Program-made: the position numbers and the translations under genes
Notes under the pieces: model-generated
Seen by the model: the letters and a program-made list of their open reading frames with translations, nothing else
Told to the model about the DNA's origin: nothing
Databases searched by the model: none
In this document: positions 36,791 to 59,476 of the stretch, in pieces
Layout of the letters: each line of letters opens with the position of its first letter
Numbering within the stretch: position 1 is the stretch's first letter
Origin: Polaromonas sp.
GTDB lineage: Bacteria > Pseudomonadota > Gammaproteobacteria > Burkholderiales > Burkholderiaceae_C
Assembly (NCBI GenBank): GCA_030655515.1
Contig: JAURVI010000046.1
Span: forward strand, 1 to 64,000
Reading direction: 5' to 3'
Length of the DNA: 64,000 bases

Positions 36791-37051
36791 TTAGGCGGCG
36801 TCATCGCGCGACGGACGGCGCCGCCGCCACATCAGCACGGCGTAGAGCAAGCCCGTTACTGCGCCGCCCAATACCACGACGCTTACGCTGAGAGTCAGTG
36901 GAAGGTAGGCCTTGCCCCAAACACAGGCTTCAGAGGTTGGTGCGCGGCACGCGAGACCGACATCCACAAACGGATACCCGGCGCCTACTGTCAACCCAAC
37001 ACAGAGCGCGATCAAGAATGGGAAGCGGCGGCTAAGCACAATGCTGTTCAT
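36791..37051 (-). CDS. Hypothetical small membrane protein whose start lies in a 114-bp element
   Basis: The 86-residue protein has two membrane helices (PFLIALCVGLTVGAGYPF and LTLSVSVVVLGGAVTGLLYAVLM) joined by a loop with two cysteines, and a basic C-terminus. Its start codon and next three codons (MNSI) are the end of the mobile element at 37039-37152, and the next residues come from the element's flanking 10-bp repeat. So either the element recreated the start of an existing gene or it truncated the original N-terminus. No named family. Confidence 0.65.
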   Translation of the reverse strand: MNSIVLSRRFPFLIALCVGLTVGAGYPFVDVGLACRAPTSEACVWGKAYLPLTLSVSVVVLGGAVTGLLYAVLMWRRRRPSRDDAA

Positions 37052-37152
37052 TTAAGCGCTACAACCCCGTTCGGGCTGAGCTTGTCGAAGCCTGTTTGCA
37101 CTGTGACGACCCTTCGACAGGCTCAGGGCGAACGGTTAAGCGAACAGTATTG
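37039..37152 (-). mobile_element. 114-bp MITE-like element, copy A (core inverted)
   Basis: Its ends are CAATGCTGTTC and GAACAGTATTG, an imperfect inverted repeat, flanked on both sides by the direct repeat CGGCTAAGCA (37029-37038, 37153-37162). The centre is a REP-like palindrome (arms GGCTGAGCTTGTCGAAG and CTTCGACAGGCTCAGG). Compared with copies at 51043 and 58471, the outer parts are reversed while the core keeps the same direction. No coding capacity. Confidence 0.85.
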
Positions 37153-37207
37153 CGGCTAAGCATGAAAAAGGTGCTTTCTAACGGTGACCCGATTCGGAGG
37201 CATTGTC

Positions 37208-48791: not shown

Positions 48792-48954
48792 CGCCTCGCT
48801 CCTTGCAAGTGCCGCCATCGTAGAAGCAATAGGCGTGCCGCACAAGGGGTGCTGTCAGGGGTGATGCGACCGGGGTGACAGCGCATCACCGGCGACGGTG
48901 CCATTGGCGAGGAGCGGTTATCTTTCTGGGTTCTCTTTCTGTTATCTTTCAGTC

Positions 48955-51039
48955 ATGAACGCTCCTTACATTCCCCAAATACGCCTTTATCAGAACTGGT
49001 TGCGCGACACGCGCGGCCTGTCGTTCGACGCCTACGATGCCTTGTGGCGCTGGTCGGTGACTGACCTCGACGCTTTCTGGCAAAGCATCTGGGACTATTT
49101 TGAACTGCAGTCGCCGACGCCGCACACGGCCGTGCTTGCGGGCAACACTATGCCCGGCGCGAAGTGGTTTTCCGGCGCGCAGTTCAACTACGCGCGGCAG
49201 GTTTTCCGGCATGTCGACAAGGCCCACGCCGCCGGTTTTCCGGCGCTTGTCAGCCACAATGAAAAAAGCCTGGGCAGCGGCCAGGCGCGCGAGCTGAGCT
49301 GGCCCGAACTGCGCCGGCAGGTTGCGTCACTGGCGCTGCATCTCAAAGCGCAGGGCGTGGTGCCGGGTGACCGCGTGGTCGCCTACCTGCCCAACATTCC
49401 CGAGGCCATGGTGGCCTTTCTGGCGGTGGTCAGCCTGGGCGGCGTGTGGAGTCTTTGCGCGCCCGACATGGGCACCAACGCCGTGCTGGACCGCTTCAGG
49501 CAGATTGAACCCAAGGTGCTGATCGCCTGCGACGGCGTCAGCTACGGCGGGCGTGACTTTGACCGGACCGGCGTGGTGGCCGAGCTGCGCGCCGCATTGC
49601 CCACGTTGCGGCATGTGATCGTTTATGACAACCTGGGCACTATCGACTCAATCGCTGATTGCACCCGATTTGAAAGGGTCACAGCCAGACGCGATGCTGA
49701 AACAGCGGCTTTTGAGCCGGTCTGGCTGCCGTTTGACCATCCGCTGTGGATTGTGTACTCCAGCGGCACCACGGGTCTGCCCAAGCCCATTGTCCACGGC
49801 CACGGCGGCACGGTGGTCGTCGCGCTGGCGCTCCAGGTGCTGCACAACGACATCGGTTGCAGCTACCAGCCCAACAGTTTTGGCGAGCGCTACCACTGGT
49901 ACAGCTCCACCGGCTGGGTCATGTGGAACGCGCAAATGGGCGGCCTGCTCAACGGCACGACCTGCTGCATCTATGACGGCAACCCGGGCGGCGACAAGGA
50001 CAAGCCGGACTGGACGACCTTGTGGCGCTTTGCTGCCGAACTCGGCGTGACATTTTTCGGCGCCGGCGCGGCCTTTTTTGCCAACTGCATGAAGGCCGGC
50101 GTGGACCTGTCGACGTGTGGCGACCTCTCGTCAGTCCGTGCGCTTGGCACCACCGGTTCACCCCTCAGCGAAGAATCGCAGCGCTGGGGCACGGAACAAT
50201 TCCGCAAGCGCCATGCCGTTCGCCCTGAGCCTGTCGAAGGGCCTTTGGGCGTTGCTACGGACAGGCTTCGACAGGCTCAGCCCGAACGGGAGGATATCTG
50301 GTGGTGCAACATCTCGGGCGGCACTGATTTCGCGGGCGCTTTTATTGGCGGCAACCGCGAGTTGCCTTTGGTCCCCGGCGAGATGCAATGCCGCCTGCTC
50401 GGCTGTGCCGTCGAAGCCTGGAACGAGGCGGGCCAGCCGGTCATCGGCGAGGTTGGCGAGCTGGTCTGCACCCAGCCGATTCCCTCGATGCCGCTGTACT
50501 TCTGGGGCGACAGCGGCAACGCGCGTTATATCTCCAGCTACTTTGACATGTACCCGAATGTCTGGCGCCATGGCGACTGGCTGAAAATCACGCCTGCGGG
50601 CGGCTGCATCATTTACGGGCGCTCCGACGCGACCATCAACCGCCACGGCATGCGCATGGGCACCAGCGAACTCTACAGCGCGGTCGAGGCACTGCCTGAA
50701 GTGCTCGACTCGATGGTGGTGGACCTGGAGTACCTGGGCCGCGACAGTTATATGCCGCTGTTTGTCGTGTTGCGAGAGGGCGTGGCGCTGGACGACGCGA
50801 TGAAGGCCAGACTGAACAGCGCTGTCAAGACCGCGCTGTCACCGCGTTTTGTGCCCAACGACATCTTTCAGGTCCCCGAAATCCCACGCACGCTGTCGGG
50901 CAAAAAGCAGGAACTCCCGATCAAAAAACTGCTGCTGGGTCAGGCGATCGAGAAGGTCGTCAACCGCGACGCCATGGCGAATCCGGCCAGCCTGGACTGG
51001 TATGTCCAGTTCGCCGCCACGCGCGCAGCAGGCGCTTAG
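48955..51039 (+). CDS. Acetoacetate-CoA ligase (acetoacetyl-CoA synthetase)
   Basis: The 694-residue ANL-superfamily enzyme has the adenylation motif YSSGTTGLPKPIVHGHGG (near residue 265), GSTGSPLSEES-like TTGSPLSEESQ, and the C-terminal hinge YGRSDATINRHGMRMGTSELY plus the catalytic lysine in SGKKQELPIK. It activates acetoacetate for polymer or ketone-body use. About 24 residues (VRPEPVEG...RQAQPE) come from a REP-like palindrome inserted in frame at 50217-50290. The gene is thus longer than relatives yet uninterrupted. The stop lies in the flanking repeat of a downstream 114-bp element. Confidence 0.92.
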   Translation: MNAPYIPQIRLYQNWLRDTRGLSFDAYDALWRWSVTDLDAFWQSIWDYFELQSPTPHTAVLAGNTMPGAKWFSGAQFNYARQVFRHVDKAHAAGFPALVSHNEKSLGSGQARELSWPELRRQVASLALHLKAQGVVPGDRVVAYLPNIPEAMVAFLAVVSLGGVWSLCAPDMGTNAVLDRFRQIEPKVLIACDGVSYGGRDFDRTGVVAELRAALPTLRHVIVYDNLGTIDSIADCTRFERVTARRDAETAAFEPVWLPFDHPLWIVYSSGTTGLPKPIVHGHGGTVVVALALQVLHNDIGCSYQPNSFGERYHWYSSTGWVMWNAQMGGLLNGTTCCIYDGNPGGDKDKPDWTTLWRFAAELGVTFFGAGAAFFANCMKAGVDLSTCGDLSSVRALGTTGSPLSEESQRWGTEQFRKRHAVRPEPVEGPLGVATDRLRQAQPEREDIWWCNISGGTDFAGAFIGGNRELPLVPGEMQCRLLGCAVEAWNEAGQPVIGEVGELVCTQPIPSMPLYFWGDSGNARYISSYFDMYPNVWRHGDWLKITPAGGCIIYGRSDATINRHGMRMGTSELYSAVEALPEVLDSMVVDLEYLGRDSYMPLFVVLREGVALDDAMKARLNSAVKTALSPRFVPNDIFQVPEIPRTLSGKKQELPIKKLLLGQAIEKVVNRDAMANPASLDWYVQFAATRAAGA
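50217..50290. repeat. REP-like palindrome inserted in frame in the acetoacetyl-CoA synthetase gene
   Basis: CCGTTCGCCCTGAGCCTGTC and its imperfect inverse ending GGCTCAGCCCGAACGG flank a short loop. The core resembles that of the 114-bp elements but lacks their ends. Its length keeps the reading frame. Confidence 0.8.
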
Positions 51040-51042
51040 CCG

Positions 51043-51156
51043 CAATACTGTTCGCTTAACCGTTCGGGCTGAGCTTGTCGAAGCCTGTTTGCACTGTGAC
51101 GACCCTTCGACAGGCTCAGGGCGAACGGGGTTGCAGCGCTTCAATGAACAGCATTG
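51043..51156 (+). mobile_element. 114-bp MITE-like element, copy B
   Basis: Ends CAATACTGTTC and GAACAGCATTG, flanked by the direct repeat CGCTTAGCCG (51033-51042 and 51157-51166), with the REP-like core in the middle. The left direct repeat contains the stop codon of the acetoacetyl-CoA synthetase gene, and the right one contains the stop codon of the convergent EamA gene, so the element fits exactly between the two. Confidence 0.85.
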
Positions 51157-51159
51157 CGC

Positions 51160-52059
51160 TTAGCCGGCGGCCGGTTTGCGGTTGACCAGCACGATGCCCG
51201 CCGTCACCAGGACCAGCGCTGCCACCAGGCTGGGCGTGACGGCTTCTTTCAGCCACAGCGCGCCAAATAGCAGCGCAAACAGCGGCGTCAGAAACACAAA
51301 CGCCGAAAGCCGGGTGGCCGGGTAGCGGCCCAGCATCCACATCCAGGCCAGGTAGCTGGCGAACGCACCCACCACCGTCTGCAGCAGCAGCGAGGTCAGG
51401 GCAAAAGGACTGAAGGCCCAGACCCACGGCTCGCCCAACGCCAATGACCAGGCCGGCAATGCCAGCGCGCCCACCGTCACCTGGTAAAAAAGCAGTTTTT
51501 CTGCGGACACCCGGGTCAGCGAGGACGCGCGGATCACCACCGTGGTCAGTCCCCAGAACATGCCGGCGGCCAGGGCCAGCCCATCACCGGGCCAGGTGGC
51601 GGCGCTGCCGGCGCTGAAACCTTCGCGCAAGGCAAAGACCACGGCGGCAAACGCACAGGCCAGGCCCGCCCATTGCGCGGGGCGCAGTTTTTCGGATTTC
51701 ACCCACACGGGCAGCAGCGCCGCCACCCAGAACGGCGAGGTATAGAGAAACACCGTCAATCGGGAGGCGCTGGTGTACTGCAGGCCAAGGTAGAGACAGA
51801 CAAACTCGGCGGCAAACAGGGTGCCGGCCAGCAGGCCGGCCGGGAGCGAGCCGTCCGCCGCAAACAGCCGGATGCCGCGCCAGGCGCACCACAGCCACAA
51901 AAGCAGCGTCGCGCCGGCAAAACGGATGGAAGCCTGAAACACCGGGGCAAGCTCCGCCAGCGTGGCTTTGACCAGCACCTGCTGGAAGCCCCAGAACAGG
52001 CAGCAGGCCAGCAGCAGGGAAATGGACAGGGTGTCCAGATGGGTTTTGCGTGAGGTCAT
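51160..52059 (-). CDS. EamA/DMT-family transporter
   Basis: The 299-residue protein has ten predicted membrane helices in two EamA repeats (LLLACCLFWGFQQVLVKATLAELAPVFQASIRFAG and the second repeat from PGDGLALAAGMFWGLTTVVIRA). Such proteins export amino acids, nucleotides or drugs. Its stop codon lies in the direct repeat flanking the 114-bp element. The ATG at 52059 (MTSRKTHLD) was preferred over one at 52092. Confidence 0.88.
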   Translation of the reverse strand: MTSRKTHLDTLSISLLLACCLFWGFQQVLVKATLAELAPVFQASIRFAGATLLLWLWCAWRGIRLFAADGSLPAGLLAGTLFAAEFVCLYLGLQYTSASRLTVFLYTSPFWVAALLPVWVKSEKLRPAQWAGLACAFAAVVFALREGFSAGSAATWPGDGLALAAGMFWGLTTVVIRASSLTRVSAEKLLFYQVTVGALALPAWSLALGEPWVWAFSPFALTSLLLQTVVGAFASYLAWMWMLGRYPATRLSAFVFLTPLFALLFGALWLKEAVTPSLVAALVLVTAGIVLVNRKPAAG

Positions 52060-52134
52060 GCGCTCATTGTGGCTCAGGCGTGGCTCCGCCATCGCCGCGT
52101 CGTGCTGCGTCCAGACGGTCGGCGACAGGGCCGG

Positions 52135-58134: not shown

Positions 58135-58470
58135 CGAAAGCTCCAAAGTTAAAAGCGGTATTTCGACAAACGTTGCGGTCGGTGCGGGGTCAACCATCCG
58201 TGGTGGCTGTGACATCGAAACGTCTGTCGGAATGACGCTTTGGCAGGTGCGGCACCCCGTCCATCGTCCCGGTCGGCGGGTGGAGCCGCAGTGCGGGTGG
58301 ACTGCGGCGCAATTGTCAAAAAGGCATGCTGTACGATACCTTTTTCCGTTTCACAAGTCGGCCAAGAGGAACTGATTTTAAGAACATCGGCAAGCCATTG
58401 GCTGACGGTCAGCCATAAAGATATGCAAAACTTGCATAAGGTTATGCGATTGAAATCCCACGTTCAAGCC

Positions 58471-58584
58471 CAATACTGTTCGCTTAACCGTTCGGGCTGA
58501 GCTTGTCGAAGCCTGTTTGCGCTGTGACGACCCTTCGACAGGCTCAGGGCGAACGGGGTTGTAGCGCTTCAATGAACAGCATTG
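58471..58584 (+). mobile_element. 114-bp MITE-like element, copy C
   Basis: Ends CAATACTGTTC and GAACAGCATTG, flanked by the 10-base direct repeat CGTTCAAGCC (58461-58470 and 58585-58594), which differs from the repeats at copies A and B as a target duplication should. Core in the same relative orientation as copy B. It lies about 30 bases before modA. Confidence 0.85.
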
Positions 58585-58615
58585 CGTTCAAGCCGCTACC
58601 CCCAAATTGGAGTCA

Positions 58616-59476
58616 ATGTCCGTGTTCCGTCGTTGTGATGCCCCTGAAAACAGCCGCGTCAAGAGCCTGAAAGTGCTTTTGCGCACGGGGCTGTTCATCG
58701 CCATGGCCGGCCTGGGCATTGGGGCCACCGCGCAAGCCCCGGCCCCGCCGCTGCGAATCGCTGCCGCGGCCAGCATGCAGCCGGTGCTGGCGGAGCTGGT
58801 GCCGTTGTTTGAGCGGGAGCGCCGCGCTGCGTCCGGAGCCACTGCACGGCCTCGGCTAACGCTGGGCTCGTCGGCCAATCTGGCGCGACAAATCCAGCAG
58901 GGCCTGCCGGTCGAGCTGTTTATGTCGGCCGACGAAGCGTTTGTTTTTCGCCTGGCCGATGCCGGCCTGACCGCTGGCCGCGGCGTCATTTACGCCACCG
59001 GCCGTCTTGTGCTGCTGGTGCCGGCCGGCTCCAGCCTGCCGCTGGACCCGCAGATGGCCGGTCTCAAAAGCGCGCTGGCGGACGTGCAAAAGTTTGCCAT
59101 CGCCAACCCCGAGCTGGCGCCTTATGGCCGCGCCGCGCGCGAGGCGCTGCAAAAGCTGGCGCTGTGGAACACTTTGCAAGAACGGCTGGTGCTGGGTGAC
59201 AACATTGCGCAGGCCACGCAGTTTGTCAGCGCCGGTGCGGCGCAGGCCGGGGTGACGGCGCTGTCCATGGTGGTGGCGCCCGAGGTCGCGCAGCGGGTGC
59301 GTTATGTGCTGCTGCCAGACAGCCTGCATGCGCCGATTCGCCAGCGCATGGTGCTGCTTAAAAACGCCAGTCCGCAGGCGCAGGCTTTCTACGACTTTCT
59401 ACAGTCACCGCCGGCCCAAGCCGTGCTGGCCAAGCACGGTTTCCAGGTTCAATGTCTGTACGAGTTCCTGAATTGA
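58616..59476 (+). CDS. modA: Molybdate ABC transporter substrate-binding protein
   Basis: The 286-residue protein has a signal peptide (VLLRTGLFIAMAGLGIGATAQ), the ModA start LRIAAAASMQPVLAEL, and LGSSANLARQIQQGLPVELFMSAD and ITALSMVVAP-type VTALSMVVAP regions of a class II periplasmic binding protein. It captures molybdate or tungstate in the periplasm for ModBC. The ATG at 58616 is chosen; a TTG at 58607 is also in frame. A 114-bp element ends just upstream, so its promoter may lie within or beyond that element. Confidence 0.92.
   Translation: MSVFRRCDAPENSRVKSLKVLLRTGLFIAMAGLGIGATAQAPAPPLRIAAAASMQPVLAELVPLFERERRAASGATARPRLTLGSSANLARQIQQGLPVELFMSADEAFVFRLADAGLTAGRGVIYATGRLVLLVPAGSSLPLDPQMAGLKSALADVQKFAIANPELAPYGRAAREALQKLALWNTLQERLVLGDNIAQATQFVSAGAAQAGVTALSMVVAPEVAQRVRYVLLPDSLHAPIRQRMVLLKNASPQAQAFYDFLQSPPAQAVLAKHGFQVQCLYEFLN

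Follow-up and report, generated by a model that had tools for sequence, protein, structure and literature searches.

RAYT/IS200-type transposition is not known to produce a target duplication. Insertion sequences (ISs) of the IS4 subgroup, as given in Table 1 of PMC2266710, have ends of the form -AATR--------WTW---- and direct repeats of 10-13 bp. MITEs have also been reported from Polaromonas sp. JS666 (Mattes et al. 2008), a study cited in the available text of PMC10969869. In this study, we analysed a 64,000-nucleotide stretch of DNA, here called the window, which contains three copies of a 114-bp element. A literature search found no description of this element, although its kind is already known; hairpin motifs searched for as text gave no match, which says little, as sequences are rarely written out in text. 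Judged from its sequence, the element is very probably a non-autonomous MITE in which IS4-subgroup terminal inverted repeats flank a REP-like hairpin that has no relation to the IS4 elements compared; it would be mobilised in trans by an IS4-family DDE transposase.

The original prediction had described three copies of equal length with matching ends, each bordered by its own 10-bp direct repeat, and its coordinates, lengths, ends and repeats were all exact. The features of the window are as follows.

37029-37038, no strand: left 10-bp target duplication CGGCTAAGCA
37039-37152, minus strand: 114-bp element (family A), with minus-oriented ends and a hairpin core inverted relative to the ends
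37153-37162, no strand: right 10-bp target duplication CGGCTAAGCA
50216-50290, no strand: related 75-bp hairpin without IS ends, in frame inside the ORF at 48898-51039
51033-51042, no strand: left duplication CGCTTAGCCG, which includes the stop codon of the plus-strand ORF (TAG at 51037-51039)
51043-51156, plus strand: 114-bp element, flanked by two converging ORFs
51157-51166, no strand: right duplication CGCTTAGCCG, which includes the stop codon of the minus-strand ORF 51160-52092
58461-58470, no strand: left duplication CGTTCAAGCC
58471-58584, plus strand: 114-bp element, upstream of the plus-strand ORF 58607-59476
58471-58486, plus strand: left terminal inverted repeat CAATACTGTTCGCTTA, 16 bp identical to the tip of the IS4-family IS L221
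58488-58556, plus strand: REP-like hairpin core; the whole element folds at -49.2 kcal/mol, z -4.6
58585-58594, no strand: right duplication CGTTCAAGCC

The genome from which the window comes (G000; 2,652,176 bases in 52 contigs, 84.8% complete) gave 78 matches to the first copy, with both strands of the palindromic core counted. BLAST with the 58471 copy against the window and 32 stretches around own-genome matches found 41 places, which comprise 32 full-length copies, five partial or chimeric copies (L027, L035, L036, L038, and L039), a single second-family copy (L012:2652), and three hairpins that lack the ends (window 50216, L037, and L040). Across the same genome, 68 occurrences of the end motif CAATRCTGTTCR were counted (35 + 33), against none for its reversed control pattern; one lone end, at C27:8747, has no partner within the fetched stretch. 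The 10-bp direct repeats are perfect in 22 of the 32 full-length copies and agree at 9 or more of 10 positions in 29, whereas flanks taken from the left and right of different copies reach this level in 5 of 992 pairs. Perfect repeats at 7, 8, 9, 11, 12, or 13 bp were found in none of the 32. Three copies have no good repeat, namely L016 (7/10), L025 (4/10, near a contig end), and L029 (4/10), the misfit of L029 looking like a one-base slip. Thus, the further copies with different flanking repeats that the original prediction had called for do exist in this genome, and its proposal of transposition by an unseen transposase acting in trans gains support from 32 copies at different sites, 29 of which have repeats of their own.

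The repeats vary by site around a common TA centre, with the motif NNSCTARSNN (T at position 5 in 29/32, A at position 6 in 29/32, and C at position 4 in 23/32). When the 37039 copy is left out for its inverted core, the other 31 copies have 33 substitutions in total relative to their consensus (~0.9%), and 12 are identical to it; with so few substitutions, the spread of the element looks recent. At 114 bp it lies below the 500-bp size of MITEs, is multicopy and has no transposase gene, and it carries terminal inverted repeats (CAATACTGTTC / CAATGCTGTTC at its two ends) and a target duplication of fixed length, 10 bp only. In the 37039 copy the core (~69 bp, 37067-37135) is inverted relative to its ends while both 10-bp repeats are intact. 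L038, flanked on both sides by the matching repeat CATCTAAACC, is a shortened copy from which the part between two CTGTT repeats appears to have been deleted.

The location of the copies relative to genes was judged by a simple gene caller that uses hexamers and was trained on the window; the same caller makes 84% of the window coding. Among the 32 insertions, 21 are intergenic, 9 lie over a stop codon, and 2 were called inside ORFs; one of these two, the 58471 copy, is probably intergenic, because it lies upstream of the listed ORF start. The YTAR sites of the window number 57 between genes, 36 inside ORFs, and 11 at stops, and a stricter target pattern gives 14, 14, and 5, respectively. Insertions therefore avoid ORFs as compared with YTAR sites (2/32 inside versus 36/104, Fisher p = 0.0013). 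Preferential insertion at stop codons was also considered, and is unsupported (9/30 versus 11/68 non-coding YTAR sites, p = 0.17). At the 51043 site the target CGCTTAGCCG contains the stops of both converging ORFs (48898-51039 and 51160-52092), and its duplication keeps both. That copies persist chiefly in intergenic DNA and at the ends of genes may be due to the stop codons in the target motif and to the little harm that the hairpin would do there.

Four joined flanks were searched in 87 genomes of the genus, and 30 loci among the matches listed, one of them own, were examined. At least 16 align across the 51043 site and at least two across the L015 site, all without the element. The original prediction had expected empty sites with a single 10-bp target: 18 loci of relatives are indeed free of the element, but the 10-bp target is not conserved at most of them, so that absence of the element is firmer than presence of a single target, and as a test of the latter the comparison is weak. 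Empty sites that retain both repeats, which would speak against transposition, were not seen among these loci, in a test equally weak for the same poorly conserved target.

The source of the transposase was examined through PF13006, the IS4 N-terminal domain, which matched in 28 of 399 same-family genomes at E <= 0.001, 27 of them above the cut-off. From same-family genomes, 30 PF13006 loci were fetched for comparison of ends and repeats. Ten of them (L208, L211, L212, L213, L214, L217, L221, L222, L223, and L227) have end pairs with a 10-bp repeat at 9-10/10, and CAATACTGTTC is found at both ends in 11 of the 30, eight of these 11 being among the ten. L221, for example, is 1559 bp long, with the ends CAATACTGTTCGCTTAGATG / CAATACTGTTCGTTTAGAGG and the duplication GGTTAGGGGC present twice, and the 10-bp repeats of L211, L212, and L217 are GGGCTAGTGG, CTCCTAGCCC, and AGGCTAGGCG, respectively. 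CTAG occupies positions 4-7 in five of the ten duplications; in the other five, L221 included, it is elsewhere or absent. The transposases of L221 and L211, the two tested, match PF13006, PF01609, and NF033592 ('IS4 family transposase'), and each is encoded in an IS with such ends, as a putative partner of the element should be. Full transposons sharing the ends, which had been recommended as a search target, were thus found as IS4-family elements with such tips and a 10-bp duplication in related genera. The other 20 loci have no end pair with a 9-10/10 repeat at 10 bp: L205 has an 11/11 repeat at 11 bp and L204 one of 8/10, the repeats of L215, L218, and L209 are poor, L210 stops with its contig, and the rest are without an end pair.

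By eye, the tip CAATACTGTTCGCTTAAC of the element fits the subgroup consensus -AATR--------WTW---- of PMC2266710, Table 1, and its 10-bp duplication falls within the 10-13 bp given in that table. The first 16 bp of the element are 100% identical to L221. Beyond the tips, comparison with the ten IS loci gave matches of 10-18 bp only, the best being a 15-bp stretch (E 0.009). The ends of E. coli IS4, TAATGCCAGTCAGTTAAG and TAATGCCGATCAGTTAAG, have 10 to 14 of 18 bases in common with three forms of the element's ends. A length of 114 bp is too short for the gene of a DDE transposase with the Y(2)R(3)E(6)K signature; despite its IS4 ends, the element does not count as an IS4 insertion sequence.

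PF13006 had no match in the own genome (~85% complete) and one match, a fragment, in 61 same-genus genomes, with no intact partner seen in the genus. A multicopy IS could be missing from the draft assembly, or the enzyme could have been lost; an IS4-type transposase presumably is, or recently was, present in the strain. In the own genome PF01609 (DDE_Tnp_1) matched once, at an ORF of the IS701 family that lacks such ends and was rejected as a partner. These ends were not found paired around a transposase in any of 30 loci from PF01609 matches of nine genomes, nor in 20 more stretches around transposase-type ORFs. A 1255-bp candidate parent in genome G066 (L187) proved to be a MITE into which an IS630-family element (NF033545) had inserted. 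The end pattern CAATRCTGTTCRSTTAAG occurred in 0 of 399 same-family genomes, and was too strict because in most of the IS4 elements there the sequence differs beyond base 11.

Ends of the form CAATRCTGTTCRNTTAA are present in 12 of 87 same-genus genomes, the own one included, around differing interiors. In G066 there are 21 elements of 142-169 bp with ends like CAATACGGTTCAGTTAAG, most of which enclose another hairpin, and elements with the same tips but other cores show the same duplications. At L089 (G011), 214 bp of DNA with 78% identity to the L227 IS4 adjoin a 92-bp element that has the same ends, and a copy of GGTCAGGTCT stands at each of the three boundaries. Similarly, at L194 (G066) a tandem of two elements is accompanied by three copies of GGGTTAGAGT; their cores differ, and one of the two resembles the 114-bp element. 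Both tandems apparently arose by repeated insertion into an already duplicated target. Over the loci of relatives, 22 of 51 scored end pairs have a repeat of at least 9/10, several pairs being overlapping or chance end matches, as compared with 32 of 2550 cross pairs, a figure inflated by shared flanks. One family element (L295) was found on a 4.9-kb contig, close to its end; the contig is labelled Gammaproteobacteria bacterium 28-57-27 and comes from the same sample as Polaromonas sp. 28-63-22. Misbinning seems probable here, and transfer is possible.

The hairpin core folds at -49.2 kcal/mol (z -4.6) and -46.9 kcal/mol (z -5.7) on the two strands, and the lone hairpin at 50216 at -47.5 kcal/mol (z -5.7). 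The presence of this 75-bp hairpin at 50216-50290 agrees with the earlier view of a nested REP-like palindrome that also occurs alone, albeit in frame within an ORF. The arm motif CTTCGACARGCTCAG has 110 exact occurrences in the own genome; among the 100 listed, 83 are in known family A, family B, or fragment places and 17 are outside the known places of both MITE families, in both cases by coordinates alone. ORF 48898-51039, which we read as a conserved ligase-like ORF, gains ~25 residues from the lone hairpin. Alignment of 16 loci of relatives at this site showed nine with a short loop and no hairpin, six (L266, L270, L273, L275, L276, and L281) with another in-frame insert in roughly that position, and one (L286) that aligns only partly, so the loop seems to accept repeats repeatedly. 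A plasmid search with family A returned 13 records covering 34-50% of the query, and the same search with a G066 element returned none. In the two records examined, both large Sphingobium plasmids (L299 and L300), the hairpin lies between genes without IS4 tips; the hairpin class therefore extends well beyond this genus.

A second MITE family, family B, uses a similar hairpin. Its end GCTGAATAAGTCTCCC marks 20 loci of the own genome (e.g. L012:2640-2760 and L234-L253), in 15 of which both ends are present, 107 bp apart; two of these pairs share a flank and are perhaps the same place twice. The tips are GGCTACGCTGAATAAGTC and, inverted, mostly GGCAATGCTGAATAAGTC, and YTAR flanks both sides in 11 of 13 scorable copies, with the same tetramer in 8 of 13. 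In this family, a hairpin similar to the family A core lies between IS5-type ends in the same genome. The nearest partner of family B that was seen is L106 (G066), an IS of 1160 bp with the tips GGCAACACTGAACAAG / GGCAACGCTGATTAAG and TTAA on both sides, which encodes an IS5-family transposase (NF033581). Furthermore, four loci (L027, L035, L036, and L039) are chimeras of the two families. In L027 an A left end is followed by a B right half, with the 10-bp repeat CAGTTAACCC, and L039 has the left end of B but the right end of A, with GTTCTAAG-type repeats; L035 and L036 are without matching repeats. The chimeras are best explained by gene conversion between hairpins.

Some of these observations could be read in other ways. 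In a REP/REPIN-type element spread by a RAYT, i.e. a tyrosine (Y1) transposase, the hairpin would be what is recognised and the 10-bp repeats would be incidental. Such an origin would suit a core that is a strong hairpin (z -4.6 to -5.7) with arms also found outside the element, and it would suit the tipless hairpin in the two plasmid records examined out of 13, both from Sphingobium. However, 10-bp duplications are present, and perfect in 22 of 32 copies, whereas REP/REPINs are not known to have any; the boundaries are at IS4-type tips rather than at the hairpin, and elements in which the same tips enclose other cores duplicate their targets likewise. Spread by a RAYT is accordingly highly improbable. 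A DDE transposase of another family, for example an unrecognised one with similar ends, is also very unlikely to move the element. The own genome, in which no IS4 gene was seen, and the interior, with nothing beyond 10-18 bp in common with the ten IS loci (best 15 bp, E 0.009), would allow for such an enzyme, but tips and duplication length both coincide with those of IS4 elements, target preference does so in half of the cases, and within the genus an IS4-like stretch and a small element have a duplicated target in common.

It is scarcely conceivable that the copies were spread by homologous recombination, gene conversion, or assembly error rather than by transposition, as recombination does not give every site a matching 10-bp repeat of its own. 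Elsewhere in the genus, too, 22 of 51 end pairs match at 9-10/10, several of them overlapping or chance matches. The A/B chimeras of ends (L027, L035, L036, and L039) together with the one inverted core suggest, on the other hand, that recombination acts on these repeats.

We therefore return to the IS4-type MITE as the preferred reading. An IS4-family DDE transposase acting in trans would recognise the ~16-bp tips (CAATRCTGTTC...TTA), move the element, and join it to a target cut with a 10-bp stagger, the favoured palindrome being NNSCTARSNN; repair would then leave the 10-bp direct repeat. What the DNA itself shows is the copies, their repeats, the element's preference for certain targets, and tips and a duplication length that agree with those of IS4 elements; the cut-and-join chemistry is presumed to be as in the IS4 family, by analogy. 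The element is best described as a type II MITE of the IS4 subgroup whose amplification looks recent.

Tips and cores occur in several combinations. One may tentatively speculate, with somewhat less than even confidence, that the REP-like hairpins of this genus owe their spread to DDE transposases and not to RAYTs, being made mobile by the tips of any IS family at hand (IS4 for family A, IS5-type for family B, and IS4 around an unrelated hairpin in G066). In such a scheme, cores and half-elements would be swapped by recombination, ends and cores would be separate modules, and a hairpin joined to a stop-containing target would allow harmless settling at gene ends. An abundant orphan repeat is here tied to a definite enzyme family, and in one genome a single class of hairpin is seen to occupy elements with the ends of two unrelated transposon families. 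Both points are relevant to how bacterial REP-like palindromes come to spread. The modular reuse of one hairpin class by two families is the part worth following. For annotators, a hairpin inside a gene, such as that in ORF 48898-51039, is possibly mobile DNA.

Among known systems, the IS4 subgroup resembles the element in its tips, which fit the consensus tabulated in PMC2266710, in the 10-bp duplication, and in the L221 tip that is identical over 16 bp; unlike the ISs of that subgroup, the element has 114 bp, no gene, and an interior with only short matches to ten IS loci. Type II MITEs, as characterised in the available text of PMC10969869, are below 500 bp, carry terminal inverted and direct repeats, are mostly intergenic and multicopy, and form hairpins, as the element does, and their similarity to ISs is confined to the tips, as it is here. 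In contrast to the MITEs portrayed in that text, a hairpin similar to that of the element recurs alone and in a second family with other ends, and the element, with 55% G+C, is not A+T-rich, yet lies below the 63% of the window. The MITEs of Polaromonas sp. JS666 are probably from the same genus as the DNA of the window. The G066 elements have the same kind of tips as the 114-bp element, but most of their hairpin cores differ. REP/REPINs are, like the element, short palindromic repeats found largely outside genes, whereas the element, unlike REP/REPINs and their RAYTs, has DDE-type tips and a target duplication.
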